From Lachnospiraceae bacterium (GTDB lineage: Bacteria; Bacillota; Clostridia; Lachnospirales; Lachnospiraceae), in assembly GCA_017463225.1 (NCBI GenBank), contig JAFTPO010000046.1, positions 1 through 64,000 on the forward strand: DNA of 64,000 nt, written 5' to 3'. The notes under the pieces are model-generated. The model saw only the letters and a list, made by a program, of their open reading frames with translations, did no database searches and was not told the origin of the DNA. A program made the translations under genes and the position numbers. Of this stretch, positions 38,917-46,923 are shown in pieces. Position 1 is the stretch's first letter. Every line of letters begins with the position of its first letter.

Positions 38917-40731
38917 TTACTCTTCATCTAGTTTAAGCACACTCATGAATGCCTTCTGAGGTATCTCAACATTACCTATCTGACGCATTCTCTTCTTTCC
39001 TTCCTTCTGCTTCTCTAAAAGCTTTCTCTTACGTGTGATATCACCACCGTAACATTTAGCTAAAACGTCCTTACGCACAGCCTTAACCGTTTCTCTGGCG
39101 ATAATCTTACTTCCGACAGCTGCCTGTATAGGAATCTCGAAGAGATGTCTTGGAATCTCCTCCTTAAGCTTCTCACACATTTTTCTTCCTCTCTCATAAG
39201 CTGTATCCTTATGTAATATGAAGGAAAGTGCATCAACCTCTTCTTTGTTGATAAGCATGTCCAGCTTAACCAAATCAGACTTCTCATAGCCTTTAAGCTC
39301 ATAATCAAGAGAAGCATAACCTCTCGAGCGTGACTTAAGTGCATCAAAGAAATCATATATTATCTCATTAAGAGGAAGGTCGTACTTGAGCAATGCACGG
39401 GTAGTCTCAAGATACTCCATACTCTTATATATACCTCTTCGCTCCTGACAAAGCTGCATTATAGCACCAACATATTCTGTTGTGACCATAATTTCTGCTG
39501 AAACAAATGGCTCTTCCATATATTCAATCATGGATGGATCAGGAAGATTGGATGGATTAGTAAGCTCTATTACCTCTCCGTCAGTTTTGTGTACCTTATA
39601 TATAACGCCCGGAGCTGTTGTTACAAGATCAAGGTTATACTCTCTCTCTAAACGCTCCTGTATAATCTCAAGATGAAGAAGGCCTAGGAAACCACATCTA
39701 AATCCAAAGCCTAAAGCAATGGATGTCTCCGGTTCAAAGGTAAGCGATGCATCATTAAGCTGAAGCTTCTCCAAAGCATCTCTAAGGTCCGGATACTTTG
39801 CTCCGTCGGCAGGATACATACCACAGTAAACCATTGAATTAACCTTCTTATATCCTGGCAATGCCTCCTCACATGGATTATTTGCATCAGTAACAGTATC
39901 TCCAACTGTTGTATCCTTAACATTTTTTAAGCTGGCTGTAATATATCCAACCATTCCTGCTGAAAGCTCCTCACAAGGAAGGAACTGACCAGCACCAAAT
40001 ATTCCAACCTGAACAACCTCTGCCTCAGCACCGGTTGCCATCATCCGAATCCTAGTACCTTTTGTTACTACACCGTCGAATACTCTGCAGAATATTATTA
40101 CTCCTTTATAGGAATCATATAAGCTATCAAATATAAGTGCTTTAAATGGTTTATCATTATCTCCACATGGAGCCGGTATCTTATGAACTATCTGCTCCAA
40201 AACCTCTTCTATATTGATACCATTTTTTGCTGAGATAAGTGGCGCATCCTGAGCCTCAAGCCCTATAATATCTTCAATCTCGTTGATAACTCTGTCAGGG
40301 TCTGCAGATGGAAGGTCAATCTTATTAATTACAGGCATAACATCAAGATTATGATCTATGGCAAGATAAACATTAGCTAATGTCTGTGCCTCTATACCCT
40401 GAGCTGCATCAACAACAAGTATAGCGCCCTCACAGGCAGCTAAGCTTCTTGATACCTCATAGTTAAAGTCCACATGACCCGGAGTATCAATAAGATTAAA
40501 AATATACTCCTCACCATCATTAGCTTTATATACTATACGTACGGACTGAGCCTTTATAGTTATGCCACGCTCTCTCTCAAGGTCCATATTATCTAAAACC
40601 TGATTCTGCATCTCTCTGCTGGTAAGCAAACCTGTTTTCTCTATAATTCTATCTGCTAAAGTAGATTTACCATGATCTATATGAGCAATTATACAAAAAT
40701 TTCTTATTCTGCTTTGATCCAAATGAGCCAT
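38917..40731 (-). CDS. lepA: Elongation factor 4 (LepA)
   Basis: LepA is a translational GTPase that assists ribosome back-translocation or biogenesis. The 604-residue protein shows G1 [11 protein letters not shown]2 RERGIT, G3 DTPGHVDF, G4 NKIDLPSAD and the LepA-specific C-terminal domain ([24 protein letters not shown]). It sits between spoIIP and hemW as in Bacillus. Confidence 0.98.
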
Positions 40732-40796: not shown

Positions 40797-41999
40797 CTAT
40801 TTTTCCGTAAGAACACTATATAATATGGCAGCCAACGGAATCATTGCATTCTTAGCCTCCTGAACTGTATTGGTCTGTGCTCCAACCTCAACCAATGAAG
40901 CCCTTGGAAGTCTGTCAAGATTATAACAGTAACCACCCACATATATTTTTCTCATCAAATCTCCATACATACTTTTGCCCTCAAGGTGCATCTTAAGACT
41001 GAAGCTTAGATTTGATGTAAGGTTAGGATTATATAAGTATCCAAGATCACCTTCCTCATTTAATCTACTGATACCATTAAAAAACATTATCTGAGCTGTA
41101 GGCTTTCCATCAATTGTTTTCACAAGTCTAACCTCATCTCTCACACCGTCTCTATGTATGTCTAAAACAACCTGTATAGATGGATGTTCTTCTAATATCT
41201 TATCAATTCCATATCCCGAATTTGTGTAAGCATAATTTCTATCTAATTTACCGTCAATAACATCATAAACTGTTCTATCATGATAGGTCTTAATACCATA
41301 GTCCTCCTCAAGTATTCTGGTAAGCTCATCACCCACACCTATTATAGAATCTTCAGTAACCCCAGGACGACTATCTGCAAAGGCTTCACTTCCATGGCTA
41401 TGATATATTAAAACTTTATAATCATCCCCTGATAAATCAACAGACATATCCATAGCAAGTAAGCTATTCACATCAACATCCTCCGGTGTAATACTTGTTG
41501 AACTATCTACGGTATAGCAATTATTTATCAGAAACTCAAAATCCGTAAGTTGTTCCATAGAATAATTAATACCAATATCAAGATTATTAGCCGGCAAATT
41601 AATTACAGGGATATCAGATTCACCTTGAGTATTATCCTGAATTGATGTATTCTCAGTCCCACCTTGAACCATAGACTGATATTCACTATCTGAATCGGTT
41701 GCAGTTTGTAAATCTACATCAACACTGCCAACGTCCACTGTTTCATCTATATTGTAAGACTCAATTTGGCAACTTTCGTCCATATAATCTGAAACAATGC
41801 ACCTATTATTCTCACTATTCTTAGCAGGAATAAATTCATCCATAACTCCTTCCAGGCACACATTTTTCTCACATGATAAAGGAATCACCTCATTTCTAAT
41901 GCCCAAAAGAAGTATACGAGATAAACCTGAAGGATTACCCAAGATTATAAAGCAAACTATAATAAGACATACAACACATTTAAACAAATCATTTTTCAT
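40797..41999 (-). CDS. spoIIP: Stage II sporulation protein P
   Basis: SpoIIP is a membrane-anchored cell-wall hydrolase (amidase and endopeptidase) that works with SpoIID and SpoIIM in forespore engulfment. The 400-residue protein has an N-terminal membrane anchor (about residues 8-30), a low-complexity acidic Asp/Ser/Thr-rich region (about 60-140) and the catalytic domain with IYHSHGSEAF and VLDIHRDGV near the end. It starts 25 bases after gpr, matching the gpr-spoIIP operon of Bacillus. The ribosome site is weak. Confidence 0.93.
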   Translation of the reverse strand: MKNDLFKCVVCLIIVCFIILGNPSGLSRILLLGIRNEVIPLSCEKNVCLEGVMDEFIPAKNSENNRCIVSDYMDESCQIESYNIDETVDVGSVDVDLQTATDSDSEYQSMVQGGTENTSIQDNTQGESDIPVINLPANNLDIGINYSMEQLTDFEFLINNCYTVDSSTSITPEDVDVNSLLAMDMSVDLSGDDYKVLIYHSHGSEAFADSRPGVTEDSIIGVGDELTRILEEDYGIKTYHDRTVYDVIDGKLDRNYAYTNSGYGIDKILEEHPSIQVVLDIHRDGVRDEVRLVKTIDGKPTAQIMFFNGISRLNEEGDLGYLYNPNLTSNLSFSLKMHLEGKSMYGDLMRKIYVGGYCYNLDRLPRASLVEVGAQTNTVQEAKNAMIPLAAILYSVLTEK

Positions 42000-42024: not shown

Positions 42025-42933
42025 TTATAATTCAAAAAATGAATTTATAGCCTCAGAAATAGTAAAGCTGATACGTTTTACTGACTCGTCTATATTCTTT
42101 GGAGTAACAAACATAGATATTAAATTCTTTTCTAAAAAATTACACGACAGATTATATTTTTCCTCATCAGTAAGCTCTATTCTGTCTCCTCCAGGCTTAC
42201 TCATAAAGAAATTCAGCATATCATCAACTACTTGATTAACTATTGCCGGAACTGATATGACCGTAGGAACTCCTATGGCGATAACCTTAACACCTAACGT
42301 AGTAGCATCAAGTTTTGCTCTTTGATTCCCCACTCCTGAGCCTGGGCTTATTCCGGTGTCACATATTTGTATAGTACGGCCTAATCTGGACGGCTCTCTT
42401 GCTGCTAATGCGTCTATAGCTATTACTATATCTGGTTTAATTTTACTGCAAAGAGACTGTAATATCTCCTGAGTCTCAACTCCTGTCTGAGCCATAACAC
42501 CTGGAGCTATAGCAGATAATTCTATAGAATTCTTTATAATTCCTTCTGATATAAGATGTCTTGTAACAAACAAATTATCTACAACATAAGGACCAAGCGC
42601 ATCTGGTGTTACAAATCTATTTCCCATACCAACAACCAGAATTTTCTTACTCCCTTTAAGAAGCTTATCCAAATTATCTCTTAGACACTGACTAAAAAGC
42701 TGATGTACATCTTCATCCTCTTTGCAAAGCTCATCACCTTCAATTGTAATATATGTTCCAACAGGTTTTCCCAAAAGCTCTGCCCCTATAGAATTCTTAA
42801 TATATATAATAGACTCTCTTATTTTTCCATTATAATTATCGATATTCTTTATCTCTATTCCATTATCTATTGAACTATCTTCTATTTCCTCATTAAGTTC
42901 TAGCGCCAAATCACTTCTTAAATATTTTTCCAT
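42025..42933 (-). CDS. gpr: Germination protease Gpr
   Basis: Gpr degrades small acid-soluble spore proteins during germination. The 302-residue protein is made as a zymogen; the N-terminal propeptide region (MEKYLRSDLALELNEE) is followed by core motifs VVGMGNRFVTPDALGP, GVMAQTGVET and DIVIAIDALAAREPSRLGRTIQ. It is slightly shorter than Bacillus Gpr (about 370), mostly in insertions. Expression should be in the forespore. Its ribosome site AGGAGT (42949-42944) lies inside a terminator-like hairpin, described separately. Confidence 0.95.
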   Translation of the reverse strand: MEKYLRSDLALELNEEIEDSSIDNGIEIKNIDNYNGKIRESIIYIKNSIGAELLGKPVGTYITIEGDELCKEDEDVHQLFSQCLRDNLDKLLKGSKKILVVGMGNRFVTPDALGPYVVDNLFVTRHLISEGIIKNSIELSAIAPGVMAQTGVETQEILQSLCSKIKPDIVIAIDALAAREPSRLGRTIQICDTGISPGSGVGNQRAKLDATTLGVKVIAIGVPTVISVPAIVNQVVDDMLNFFMSKPGGDRIELTDEEKYNLSCNFLEKNLISMFVTPKNIDESVKRISFTISEAINSFFEL

Positions 42934-42971
42934 AAAAAATACTACTCCTATATTATATAGAAGTAGTATTT
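42934..42971 (-). terminator. Hairpin that terminates upstream transcripts and hides the gpr ribosome site
   Basis: On the minus strand a 16-bp stem (one G-T pair; arms 42971-42956 and 42952-42937) with a 3-base loop is followed by six T that run directly into the gpr ATG at 42933. The second arm contains the gpr Shine-Dalgarno AGGAGT. A transcript from the upstream amidase gene would form this hairpin, terminating or blocking gpr translation. Confidence 0.8.
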
Positions 42972-42992
42972 GTATAATTTAATATATTATTC
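42964..42992 (-). promoter_or_regulatory. Candidate sigma-G promoter of gpr
   Basis: On the minus strand GAATA (42992-42988), 17 bases, AATACTA (42970-42964). This fits the sigma-G pattern GHATR / CATxHTA except for the first base of the -10. It begins right after the stop of the preceding gene, and the -10 lies within the first arm of the hairpin, so transcripts starting near 42957 would lack most of that arm. Confidence 0.55.
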
Positions 42993-42994
42993 CT

Positions 42995-45298
42995 TTAATT
43001 AGCATCTGTAGATGTTGAAATATCAATTGTGGTTACATCTTCTGTTGTGTCCTGGATTATGCTATCACAAGCTGCCTCTTCCACTGAATATTCTTCAACA
43101 ACCTCTGCTTCATCCACTGTAGCATTGCCATTGATATAAGGTCTTGTTGTACTTCCCGGAGCAGGTCCTCCCTTTGGAACATACCTTATCTCAATACCCT
43201 CTAAACGTTTTGACAAGCCTTCACTACCGGCCATCTCACCGTTTTTCGCCCAGTCAAGCCAGCCATAATCCTGACAATGAACTCTATAATATACATCATA
43301 GGTCTGCTCTAATTCTCCTGTAAGTTTGATGCATATTCCTTCTAATCTTCTGGACTCTCCAGTAGTTCCTGATAAAGCACCATCACTTACCCAATCCATC
43401 CATCCATGATCCTGACAATGTACCTTATATGTAACACTTCCGCTTATATCGGACATATTTTCAATTTTAATACCTTCAAGTCTCTTTGAGCGACCAGTTG
43501 TTCCAGACATCTTACCATCGCTTACAAATCCCTGCCAGCCTATATCCTGTACATGAGTTCTATATCTGATAAGCTCTGTCACATATGGTCTTGCTGTTGA
43601 ACCAGGAGCTTCGCCACCCTTTTCAACAAGCTTAATCTCTATAGCCTCAAGTCTCTTTGCGTATCCGCTGGTTCCTGATGCCTGACCATTTTTCGCCCAA
43701 TCAAGCCAGCCGTAATCCTGAGCATGAACTCTATAGTAGATATCATACTCTGCTTCTAATTCTCCTGAAAGCTTTATACGAATAGCCTCAAGTCTCTTAG
43801 ACTCTCCACTGGTTCCACCCATCTGACCGGATTTCACCCATTCCATCCAACCATAATCCTGGCAATGAACCTGATAGCTAATATCTCCGGAAATACCAGT
43901 GTTATTTCTAATAATAATACCCTCTAATCTCTTAGACTGTCCTGTTGTTCCACTTGTTATACCATCATAAGCTTCAGCAACCTCCCAGCCATAATCCTGA
44001 ATATGTGTCAGGTAGGCTACTCCGGCCTCAGCAGGTGCTTTAACAGGCTCTAAATAAGCGCTTACATAGCTTGTTGGGGCATTTCCACCCTTGGTAATCA
44101 GCCTTACCTGTATAGCTCTAATTTCAGAGCCAAAGCCTACCTTACCAGCAGGCGCACCATTCTTTGCCCAACCTAACCAGTTGCCTTCTCCAAGGTGAAC
44201 CCTGTAATATACATCATATTTTGATGCTATGTCACCTGTTAAGCTTATATTTATAGCTTCTATAGCTTGTCCGTTTGTTGTGCTTCCTGCTATACCACCG
44301 GTAGTAACCTGGTTCTGCCAGCCACTTCCAGCCATATATGCACTATATACTATATCACCTGATACGCCTTCTTTATTCAAATCAATCTTAAAGGCTTCCA
44401 TCTGCTTATCTCTGTGGTCATTCTTTCTAAAAGTAAGGAATCCGGCAGCCATCCCATTAGGAGCTGTTGAAACCCAACCGTAATCATCCATAAAAGGAGT
44501 AACCTCTAAGGTAGGAAATCCTGTATTACCTGTTCCCTTTAATTTAAGATTAAAATACTTTGCTATAGCCTTAGCATCAGCCTCTCCCATAGCCTTAAGC
44601 TTACTAGGGCTATTAAGAAACTCCGCATCAAACTTATTATTAACAAATGCATGCTCTACGATAAGAGATGGTATTCCACTCATAACACAATCTGCTATTA
44701 CTGTGTAATAATCATCATCCGGCAAAATAGTAGACGGCTTAGTCTTAACTCCTCTGTTAGTAAGTCCTAATGCAGATAAATTAGCGCAAATATCAGTTGC
44801 AAGCTGATTAGTATTGCTGGCATAAGGCTCTACCACTGATCTATAAACCTCGCAACCGTTAGCTCCTGAAATCTCATAGCTGGTAGAATTGCTATGTAAG
44901 CTTACAAACAAATCTGCCTCATTAACCTCAGCAACCTGAACTCTGGCGCTTAATGATGAATACTCATCTCTATTTTGTCTGGTAAGAATAACCTTTACAT
45001 TTTCATACTTCTCTAAATATGCCTTACAAGCAAGTGTCATCTCCCAGTTACTGTTCTTTTCATTGGTTTTCAACTGGGCATTACACGCGCCATTATCATT
45101 ACCACCATGACCGGGATCTAAAACAATTACTATGGGATCACTAGCAGATGCCACAGAAACTATAGTACCAATTCCTTCATATCCCAGTAAACCAACAAAC
45201 ATTATAAAAGTCGTAATCAAAGCTAATAATCTTGTAGCAATTCTTTTAATTCTCAATTTCCCCAATTCCTTCCTTATTATTTTATGTCTATTCAACAT
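42995..45298 (-). CDS. Secreted N-acetylmuramoyl-L-alanine amidase with nine ChW repeats
   Basis: The 767-residue protein has a long signal peptide (about residues 20-52, ending near ASA), an Amidase_3 zinc amidase domain (VLDPGHGGNDNGA, VSLHSNST, LIVEHAFVN, about residues 57-245), and nine ChW repeats of about 50 residues (pattern HxQDYGWxxWxxxGxxxGTxGxxKRLEAIxIxL). ChW repeats are typical of clostridial surface proteins and thought to aid wall binding. A Glu/Asp/Thr-rich tail ends the protein. The ATG overlaps the L,D-transpeptidase gene by 11 bases with no clear ribosome site; an alternative TTG start near 45250 is possible. Probably cotranscribed with the transpeptidase. Confidence 0.9.
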   Translation of the reverse strand: MLNRHKIIRKELGKLRIKRIATRLLALITTFIMFVGLLGYEGIGTIVSVASASDPIVIVLDPGHGGNDNGACNAQLKTNEKNSNWEMTLACKAYLEKYENVKVILTRQNRDEYSSLSARVQVAEVNEADLFVSLHSNSTSYEISGANGCEVYRSVVEPYASNTNQLATDICANLSALGLTNRGVKTKPSTILPDDDYYTVIADCVMSGIPSLIVEHAFVNNKFDAEFLNSPSKLKAMGEADAKAIAKYFNLKLKGTGNTGFPTLEVTPFMDDYGWVSTAPNGMAAGFLTFRKNDHRDKQMEAFKIDLNKEGVSGDIVYSAYMAGSGWQNQVTTGGIAGSTTNGQAIEAINISLTGDIASKYDVYYRVHLGEGNWLGWAKNGAPAGKVGFGSEIRAIQVRLITKGGNAPTSYVSAYLEPVKAPAEAGVAYLTHIQDYGWEVAEAYDGITSGTTGQSKRLEGIIIRNNTGISGDISYQVHCQDYGWMEWVKSGQMGGTSGESKRLEAIRIKLSGELEAEYDIYYRVHAQDYGWLDWAKNGQASGTSGYAKRLEAIEIKLVEKGGEAPGSTARPYVTELIRYRTHVQDIGWQGFVSDGKMSGTTGRSKRLEGIKIENMSDISGSVTYKVHCQDHGWMDWVSDGALSGTTGESRRLEGICIKLTGELEQTYDVYYRVHCQDYGWLDWAKNGEMAGSEGLSKRLEGIEIRYVPKGGPAPGSTTRPYINGNATVDEAEVVEEYSVEEAACDSIIQDTTEDVTTIDISTSTDAN

Positions 45299-46226
45299 CT
45301 ACATCAGTAGGATCCCATGTCTGATCCTCAGGTATCTGTGTAAAGCCAGGCTTTCCTAAAGGCCCTGGATTAGAATCATTATAAATAGTTATTTCTGTAC
45401 CTGTTGTACAATTATCATATATCCACTTTGCATCTTCACATTTTAATCTAATGCAACCATGAGAACAAAGTGTTCCTAAGTCATTATACATCTCAGTATC
45501 TAAATCATATATATCCATTGAATTATATGGAACTGAATGGAATAAATAATCTCCTGATATCTGAGAGCAATATCTTCCATACTGTCCTTTAATTAATGTA
45601 AGCCAGTCCCACTGACTCTGCATATAAAATGTACCTTCAGGAGTTGATTCGCCAGCCGAACAAATCATTGCTTTAATTGGAGTCTCACCCTTATAAATTG
45701 TAACACAGCTAGACTGTTTATTAACTTTAATGGATAATTCTCCTTCAATCTCCTGCCAATTTTCTACCTCAATAACCTCTGGCATAGACTCAACTTTAGT
45801 ATCTGCCACCTGATTATTAACATCATTTACAATTCCGGAATTATTTACAACACCTGTTTCACCAACAGACTCTGTTGCTACAACAGTATTACCCGAAACA
45901 CTTGAACCTATCTCCTGTACACTACCATCAGCGGTAACCTGAGATATGCTTCCTGTTACTTCATTACAACATACATCCTCAGTACTATTTTCTACATCCA
46001 TACAGTGCTCGTCGATAGCAGCTTCTAAAGAAATACTATCTATATTTATATCTGTATACTCCACCACGTCGCTAGTATACTTCTGCTGAGCTACTTCCTT
46101 TAGATACTCAAAATTATTTGATTTTGAAGCATGTGAATTAATATGAACAACCATTAATATGGTAATCATAAGACAAATCATAGATATTGAAATAAACTTG
46201 TTATATTTTCTAGTGTAATTCTTCAT
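45288..46226 (-). CDS. L,D-transpeptidase (YkuD domain), membrane-anchored
   Basis: YkuD enzymes make 3-3 cross-links in peptidoglycan. From ATG 46226 (MKNYTRKYNK) the protein has 312 residues. GAGG is nine bases upstream; a longer frame would add 18 unlikely residues. There is an N-terminal membrane anchor (about residues 12-32), a Val/Thr/Ser-rich spacer, and the catalytic domain with HSVPYNS and the signature CSHGCIRL (nucleophile Cys near residue 257). It shares a transcript with the ChW amidase. Two WalR-type boxes lie at its promoter. Confidence 0.92.
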   Translation of the reverse strand: MKNYTRKYNKFISISMICLMITILMVVHINSHASKSNNFEYLKEVAQQKYTSDVVEYTDINIDSISLEAAIDEHCMDVENSTEDVCCNEVTGSISQVTADGSVQEIGSSVSGNTVVATESVGETGVVNNSGIVNDVNNQVADTKVESMPEVIEVENWQEIEGELSIKVNKQSSCVTIYKGETPIKAMICSAGESTPEGTFYMQSQWDWLTLIKGQYGRYCSQISGDYLFHSVPYNSMDIYDLDTEMYNDLGTLCSHGCIRLKCEDAKWIYDNCTTGTEITIYNDSNPGPLGKPGFTQIPEDQTWDPTDVDVE

Positions 46227-46266
46227 ACGCAAATTCCTCAAAACAATTATTTTAATAAGTGTTTTG

Positions 46267-46295
46267 AGTATATCACGCATGTAACAAGTTTGTAA
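46267..46295 (-). promoter_or_regulatory. Sigma-A promoter of the L,D-transpeptidase gene
   Basis: On the minus strand TTACAA (46295-46290), 17 bases, TATACT (46272-46267), about 40 bases before the ATG. The -35 is covered by one of the two WalR-type boxes. Confidence 0.6.
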
Positions 46296-46399: not shown

Positions 46400-46906
46400 T
46401 TAAATATTACCTAGTTTATCACTAAGCATTGCTACTGCTTCTTCTATAGTAGTATTATCGCAAGCTATTGTAATATCTGCATAGCGTTCATATATAGGCA
46501 CTCTTTCTGCATAAATGTCATCTAAGGTTTTACCATCCTTCATGGCTATACCTCTGGTGGTAATATTCTTAACACGATTCTTTATCTCGTCACAGCTTAG
46601 CTTAATATACACAACAACACCATTGTTTTTCATATTTTCCATAGCTTCTTTACCATAAATAGCACTACCACCTGTTGCAATAACTGTGTTTTTCACATGA
46701 AGTCCGGCTATAACTTCATTTTCAATTTTCAAAAACTCATCTATGCCAACCTCTTCTATAATCTGATAGAGCTTCTTACCCACTTTTTTCTGTATAACAA
46801 TATCAGCATCTAGAAAATCATAGTTTAATACCTTAGCAAGCAATACACCCAAGGTGCTTTTTCCTGCTCCCGGCATACCTATTAATACTATATTTTTATC
46901 CATCAT
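46400..46906 (-). CDS. Shikimate-kinase-like P-loop kinase
   Basis: The 168-residue protein has the shikimate kinase fold: Walker A GMPGAGKS, DADIVIQ, a GG segment ATGGSAIYG, and the C-terminal ERVPIYERYADI. However, the shikimate-binding FRxxE is FLKIE, so the key Arg is lost, the third Gly of the GGG motif is Ser, and the lid reads TTRGIAMKDG instead of the usual RPLL. The true substrate may therefore differ. I start at ATG 46906, since GTAGGG is about eight bases upstream; GTG 46915 or ATG 46903 are possible. No other aromatic-pathway gene is nearby. It follows the small Cys-rich gene. Confidence 0.75.
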   Translation of the reverse strand: MMDKNIVLIGMPGAGKSTLGVLLAKVLNYDFLDADIVIQKKVGKKLYQIIEEVGIDEFLKIENEVIAGLHVKNTVIATGGSAIYGKEAMENMKNNGVVVYIKLSCDEIKNRVKNITTRGIAMKDGKTLDDIYAERVPIYERYADITIACDNTTIEEAVAMLSDKLGNI

Positions 46907-46923
46907 TATGTTCACCCTACCTA

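Follow-up and report, generated by a model that had tools for sequence, protein, structure and literature searches.

Packed bacterial genomes must silence developmental genes while their neighbours are transcribed, and the locus described here, at which a spore operon lies behind co-directional genes, raises the question of how this might be done. On its minus strand, the window (the whole 64,000-nucleotide stretch of Lachnospiraceae DNA that was analysed) carries, in this order, genes for a shikimate kinase, an L,D-transpeptidase-domain protein and an amidase, followed by gpr, spoIIP and lepA. The amidase gene runs in the same direction as gpr and ends 61 nt ahead of the gpr ATG. A base-by-base check of the 59-base stretch 42934-42992 gave GAATA-N17-AATACTA, a 16-bp hairpin and a run of six T residues, after which comes the gpr ATG. 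The genes and the parts of this segment are as follows.

46400-46915, minus strand: shikimate kinase gene
45288-46280, minus strand: gene for an L,D-transpeptidase-domain protein
42995..45298, minus strand: gene for an N-acetylmuramoyl-L-alanine amidase with ChW (clostridial hydrophobic W) repeats (PF01520, PF07538)
42988..42992, minus strand: -35-like element GAATA of a forespore-type promoter (sequence)
Between GAATA and AATACTA, minus strand: 17-base spacer (sequence)
42964..42970, minus strand: -10-like element AATACTA, within the 5' arm of the hairpin (sequence and register test)
42956..42971, minus strand: 5' arm of the hairpin, AAATACTACTTCTATA, which includes the -10 element and, as pairing partner of the ribosome site, CTTC (fold)
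42957..42957, minus strand: predicted position at which forespore transcripts begin, about 7 nt past the -10 element
42953..42955, minus strand: hairpin loop, TAA (fold and sequence)
42937..42952, minus strand: 3' arm of the hairpin, TATAGGAGTAGTATTT, which includes the gpr ribosome site (fold)
42944..42949, minus strand: gpr Shine-Dalgarno sequence AGGAGT, buried inside the 3' arm (sequence)
42934..42939, minus strand: T6 run, the U-tract of the terminator-like hairpin, abutting the start codon (sequence)
42931-42933, minus strand: gpr start codon ATG (sequence)
42025..42933, minus strand: gpr, spore endopeptidase GPR, 302 amino acids (TIGR01441, E 4.9e-98)
40797..41999, minus strand: spoIIP, beginning 25 nt past gpr and probably in the same operon (PF07454, E 8.5e-54)
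38917-40731, minus strand: lepA

The initial annotation of this DNA had placed the hairpin, the T run, AGGAGT and the promoter elements at these same positions, and all were confirmed to the base. From the sequence and from modelled RNA folds, we consider it probable that the 59 bases insulate the gpr-spoIIP operon, with whose start they are fused, and act as a promoter-position switch. Such a switch is well supported by the comparison of genomes, namely by sequence, arm pairing, covariation, a fixed promoter register, predicted opening energies and the link with a co-directional neighbour. The start of transcription, its termination, the block to translation and the sigma factor involved are inferred; they would combine in the following way. 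RNA reading through from the upstream gene would carry both arms and fold into the 16-bp hairpin. Together with the U residues after it, this fold should end some of the transcripts and cover the gpr ribosome site in those that continue. A forespore polymerase carrying sigma-F or sigma-G would use the promoter whose -10 element lies in the first arm and would start about seven bases further on; the resulting RNA, lacking nearly all of the first arm, would form no hairpin and gpr would be translated. If this is correct, one short spacer would serve as terminator, translational lid and promoter at once, and would silence the operon without a protein regulator, simply by where the RNA begins, a possible way for a spore operon to tolerate a position behind housekeeping genes.

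The stem comprises 16 bp with one G-U pair in coding-strand RNA, and the first three residues of the T run are part of the second arm, pairing with A residues of the first. The layout of an intrinsic terminator, a stem-loop and then a U-tract, is therefore present, and because the stem is A+T-rich, termination may be weak. A simple terminator scan did not list the gpr hairpin, probably because the arm-pairing T residues count as stem under the scan rule, and Rfam covariance models gave no match at E values up to 1 in region 42700-43300. The fold of 111 nt had a z-score of -3.65, which none of 200 shuffles equalled. Ribosome sites as deeply buried as this one are rare in the genome: in a sample of 450,271 bases (the 64-kb window plus 20 further stretches), where 278 starts were scored for the cost of opening the ribosome site, the cost reached at least 12 kcal/mol at two, gpr among them, at least 9 kcal/mol at five and at least 6 kcal/mol at 17. 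At least five T residues directly precede the ATG at two of the 205 ATG starts in the same sample, gpr again being one of them.

The effect that the choice of start should have was estimated by comparing the predicted opening cost in RNA that includes 60 nt upstream with that in RNA begun 7 nt past the -10 element. Across the 21 genomes of the genus with a short hairpin loop, the median was 11.3 kcal/mol for the longer RNA versus 1.6 kcal/mol for the truncated one, the highest residual costs being 5.9 (G004 and G023) and 5.7 (G030). For gpr of the genome under study, the predicted cost fell from 10.5 kcal/mol in read-through RNA to 0.6 kcal/mol on truncation; in another sequence context it was predicted at 12.8 kcal/mol. 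The initial annotation had proposed that the read-through hairpin either stops transcription or leaves gpr untranslated: masking is borne out by the comparison and by the predicted opening cost, while for termination the one pointer is the U-run. It had also held that forespore RNA cannot fold the arm; in silico, removal of the arm does free the ribosome site, and a start near 42957 would bring this about.

Conservation was assessed in 37 genomes of the genus, gpr being found in 29; in one of these (G010) the contig stops where the gene begins, leaving 28 upstream sequences, which include that of the genome under study and from which L009, a duplicate of G005, was left out. Both arms of the hairpin are kept in 27 of the 28, a figure to be read against a gpr tree of about nine genus lineages, with support below 80 at 12 of 31 inner branches, whose members are not independent of one another. 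Arm pairing in relatives, singled out for checking in the initial annotation, is thus retained, with stem changes on both sides. In 21 of the 28, a hairpin predicted to bury the ribosome site lies within 60 nt, with an opening cost of 6.2-16.0 kcal/mol, and six of the 27 have an insertion in the loop. The single loss, in G001, concerns both arms and the T run together; here a divergent MgtE-family gene lies upstream, a search for co-directional ORFs of 80 codons gave none, and G001 is the sole genome in which no co-directional gene was found ahead of gpr. With a sigma-G profile, the best hits in 31 of the 37 genomes had E values of 7e-113 or lower, the curated cut-off being passed by none of the 37, and the six whose best hit was 1e-39 or weaker (G014, G024, G027, G028, G033 and G034) are also without gpr. 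In two further genomes, G015 and G017, which may be incomplete assemblies, sigma-G and SASP gave hits and gpr gave none.

In the six genomes with a loop insertion (G011, G026, G029, G012, G009 and G020), the two arms are retained and are separated by an element of about 100-300 bp. When five of these were folded whole (G011, G026, G029, G012 and G009), the element folded on itself, joining the arms, and in G011 it is bounded by 25-base inverted repeats. The opening cost in the long-loop genomes was 5.5-10.8 kcal/mol with both arms, falling to 2.0-2.6 kcal/mol in RNA from 7 nt past the -10 element; in G009 a C breaks the T run. The loop elements, at loci L033, L030, L031, L027, L028 and L022, occur in two clades, with 25-base inverted-repeat ends in L033.

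When a terminator-like hairpin closely follows one gene and closely precedes another, it is important to consider that it may simply serve the upstream gene as an ordinary intrinsic terminator, overlapping the gpr start by chance and burying the ribosome site as a by-product. Consistent with this, T5-7 follows the hairpin in all 21 short-loop genomes, and in 20 of these a co-directional ORF of at least 80 codons ends 53-78 nt ahead of the gpr ATG (in the 21st, G019, a 67-codon ORF ends 73 nt ahead), gaps that offer little space for a second hairpin; in G106 and G076, which belong to sister genera, the amidase-like gene upstream is followed by a separate terminator-like hairpin, as judged by eye. 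However, the hairpin stays with gpr while the upstream gene varies between amidase, shikimate kinase, permease-like and other genes (named by eye from C-terminal sequences, except in the genome under study, where a profile was used), its least variable part is the one that pairs with GGAG, the -10 element abuts that arm in a fixed register, and G076 masks its ribosome site without a U-run despite the terminator-like hairpin ahead. We therefore regard a chance overlap with a terminator as unlikely.

Variation within the stem was read from each sequence's own fold, because MAFFT misaligned the 3' arms of two stem-length classes, which by eye differ by three bases in both arms. Numbering from the first G of GGAG, and bearing in mind that the counts are biased towards pairing, the criterion by which each fold was selected, we found TA in eight and AT in four at position -4, AT in 11 and TA in three at position -3, and TA in 10 and AT in six at position -2; position +6, with CG in 10, AT in six and TA in one, mostly splits the two length classes. 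The CTCC/GGAG core is nearly fixed, with a U-G pair at position +1 (the CTTC.GGAG step) in seven of 21. These data also bear on the idea that the inverted repeat acts as DNA and not as RNA, serving as an operator at which a repressor, for instance a SpoVT-like protein, controls the forespore promoter. The repeat does overlap the -10 element, and in C. difficile, according to the accessible part of one report, gpr is up 9-fold in a spoVT mutant (PMC3789822). Against an operator, the U-G pairs at the CTTC.GGAG step fit pairing in RNA and not a fixed protein site, the other letters of the stem change freely, and the loops range from 3 nt to several hundred; we hold this explanation to be highly improbable.

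The switch proposed above places particular weight on where the promoter lies with respect to the hairpin. The consensus for sigma-G promoters has GHATR at -35 and CATAMTA at -10, separated by about 17-18 nt. We let the hairpin alone set the register, taking the seven bases before the GGAG-pairing arm as the -10 element and the five bases 17 upstream as the -35 element, and scored the 21 short-loop sequences against GHATR-N17-CATAMTA at slides from -12 to +12. The mean was 3.31 at slide 0, the next best being -2.49 at +3 and the remainder below -8; G023, whose row is one base off in register, was kept in the test. An overlap of hairpin and -10 element in relatives, which the initial annotation had suggested looking for by alignment, is indeed found, the -10 element abutting the ribosome-site-pairing arm in a fixed register. 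AATACTA itself occurs in 10 of the 21 rows, or 11 if G023 is shifted by one base. Among 27 genomes, the -35 element at N17 matches GHATR at four or five of five positions in 17, at three in one and at two in nine, several of the last being better at N18 (GAATG in G003, GTATG in G031 and TAATA in the G030/G011 group), and the -10 element matches CATAMTA at only four of seven positions in seven (G035, G004, G036, G003, G019, G021 and G020).

This register also bears on a further possibility, that forespore transcripts start upstream of the first arm and carry the hairpin as a leader which tunes gpr translation during sporulation, like the small hairpin at B. subtilis sigG (PMC5942855, as far as its accessible text goes). 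That case is itself an argument in favour, as is the hairpin over the ribosome site of the genus's own sigG, with an opening cost of at least 6 kcal/mol in 22 of the 27 loci scored. Yet the fixed-register motif puts the start within the hairpin, and the 61-nt gap offers little room for another promoter and a full leader, so that a tuning leader appears improbable to us.

As to which factor would read the promoter, gpr of the genome under study matches the sigma-G consensus at all five -35 positions (GAATA) and six of seven -10 positions (AATACTA) with 17 bases between them, and its own SASP gene has ACATA-N17-AATAATA, with the same spacing as gpr. On a promoter matrix learned from the ssp genes of the genus, the gpr site scores 13.8, where random 63-mers drawn from the window have their 99th percentile at 11.7; this matrix, built from 28 of 30 ssp upstream sequences (two with doubtful starts being left out), drifted on divergent members and was dropped beyond that comparison. 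Many ssp upstream sequences in the genus (L094 and others) show, by eye, an AAGACA...TGTCTT-like inverted repeat just past the predicted promoter and off the ribosome site. For sigma-F the -10 consensus is GGNRANANTR, which the decamer of gpr in the genome under study matches at five of seven positions and those of G002, G018 and G025 at seven of seven. In C. difficile, gpr and spoIIP are placed in the sigma-F regulon, and the accessible text distinguishes sigma-F promoters there by a G upstream of the -10 element and sigma-G promoters by an A on the downstream side of that element (PMC3789822). Because of the complete sigma-F decamers in three relatives and this C. difficile listing, we term the promoter forespore-type, with sigma-F or sigma-G as the probable factor. 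The assignment to sigma-G in the initial annotation holds as regards the pattern, and not as regards exclusivity, sigma-F being a candidate as well.

SpoIIP (PF07454) lies downstream of gpr in 26 of the 27 genomes in which gpr ends within its contig, the one under study included; in the 27th, G003, the sequence after gpr is masked. The nearest open frame starts -14 to 58 nt past gpr, the negative gaps being due to early TTG codons. The short gap to spoIIP makes it likely that the unit shielded is the gpr-spoIIP operon. Since GPR is synthesized as a zymogen, the danger posed by a protease may be the lesser reason for such shielding and the wall hydrolase SpoIIP the greater. The initial annotation had spoken of keeping a dangerous spore protease silent; shielding is supported by the comparison, and the protease is probably not its sole target, given that spoIIP probably shares the unit.

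A search of the family found a match to gpr in 198 of 299 genomes, our own included, and the 29 best matches outside the genus were examined together with their loci. None of these 29 has five or more T residues ahead of the gpr start. When masking was counted from the upstream sequence alone, with two start codons corrected, opening the ribosome site cost at least 6 kcal/mol in two of the 29, G076 (6.9) and G051 (9.5). In G076, of a sister genus, the mask is formed by an unrelated GC-rich stem, GAATA-N17-TAAACTA is present, and the opening cost falls from 7.3 to 0.8 kcal/mol; in G106, of another sister genus, the upstream gene is co-directional and the ribosome site unmasked. In G051 (L062) the gpr ribosome site is likewise predicted to be buried. 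By eye, a divergent rpsT-like gene lies beside gpr in nine of the 29, both of the two that were profiled being ribosomal protein S20, and in 15 of the 29 the nearest reported ORF looks antisense to rpsT.

Masking of a ribosome site in read-through RNA, with the promoter inside the hairpin, is in principle already known. The lysozyme gene e of phage T4 is transcribed early into RNA that folds over the ribosome site and lowers synthesis 100-fold, while the late promoters sit in the DNA for the 5' strand of the structure and give RNA that is well translated; soc, 49 and I-TevI have leaders of the same type (PMC3014915, accessible part). The gpr segment resembles gene e in that read-through RNA would mask the ribosome site and the gene's own promoter lies in the 5' arm, and differs in that the promoter is of a bacterial forespore type, as opposed to a phage late promoter, and serves a chromosomal operon, and in the fusion of a terminator U-run to the start codon, none being described for gene e in that part of the source. 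For B. subtilis sigG (spoIIIG), a hairpin of 20 or more bp has been proposed to block translation of the spoIIGA-sigE read-through RNA, whereas RNA begun at the sigG promoter cannot form it (PMC5942855, accessible part). Similarly, the gpr hairpin is predicted to form in read-through RNA and to be absent from RNA of its own promoter; unlike the sigG case, as far as this source describes it, the gpr -10 element abuts the ribosome-site-pairing arm and a T run before the ATG gives the whole a terminator-like form, in another gene and another lineage. In C. difficile, too, gpr is forespore-controlled and in one operon with spoIIP, a likeness by description only, the accessible text making no mention of a masking hairpin (PMC3789822). 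Our literature searches, with most subscription journals outside their coverage, found no such arrangement at gpr. New at gpr are the fusion with a terminator-like U-run and the upkeep of the arrangement across a genus, where a device known from a phage lysis gene and from B. subtilis sigG has been kept despite changes of neighbour and insertions into the loop; the gpr element also offers clear, testable base changes.

In IS10 and other transposase genes, RNA that enters from outside buries the transposase ribosome site, which is known as fold-back protection. Such a fold-back protects a mobile element, whereas the gpr hairpin belongs to a developmental operon. Repeated IS-like copies, identified by eye, in the genome under study (L180 and L186; G000:C12 and C69) have a hairpin over a transposase-like start, GGAGGTCGGTTTTTTATG.

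The gpr layout was also sought elsewhere with the pattern GGAG-N1-8-T6-ATG. In the genome under study this led to a rubredoxin gene with an opening cost of 16.4 kcal/mol (L189, G000:C94:21651), in which a long terminator-like hairpin runs into the start, T7 preceding the ATG, and in relatives to masked starts of a Clp-protease-domain gene, a YdcZ-type exporter and a DUF6240 protein. The T run as a mark of a class was dropped: the pattern has 17 matches in the genome under study, many of which are not gene starts or are unmasked. DUF6240 has a match in 36 of the 37 genus genomes, and 30 loci (L213-L242) were scanned. In 28 of the 30, [CT]CGATA lies 20-75 nt ahead of a start that has a sequence loosely resembling a ribosome site, and at 12 loci TAGA lies 14 nt ahead of the -10 octamer. 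The opening cost was at least 6 kcal/mol in 14 of the 28, falling to 1.0-5.5 kcal/mol for RNA from 7 nt past the -10 element; the copy in the genome under study (G000:C26:13169) went from 7.9 to 1.6 kcal/mol on truncation. Because the scan picked each start for having a -10 element and had no shuffled control, and because 14 of the 28 have no strong mask, the DUF6240 gene is only a lead, as a possible case of a gpr-like layout with a sigma-D-like promoter (of CCGATA type) in the masking arm. It is conceivable, although we would stop a little short of calling it likely, that one layout serves several regulons, with alternative-sigma genes behind co-directional genes (gpr-spoIIP and DUF6240) carrying their promoter in the ribosome-site-masking arm, often with a U-run touching the start codon; such a layout would combine terminator, lid and promoter in a short spacer independently of the sigma factor used.

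The sigG hairpin mentioned above is conserved among the genus loci fetched (30, L099-L128, that of the genome under study being L126), and the sigG promoter could not be placed among them. Finally, GGAGGTGCATTTTTTATG occurs four times in G005 (C13, C27, C43 and C104), perhaps as another mobile element.
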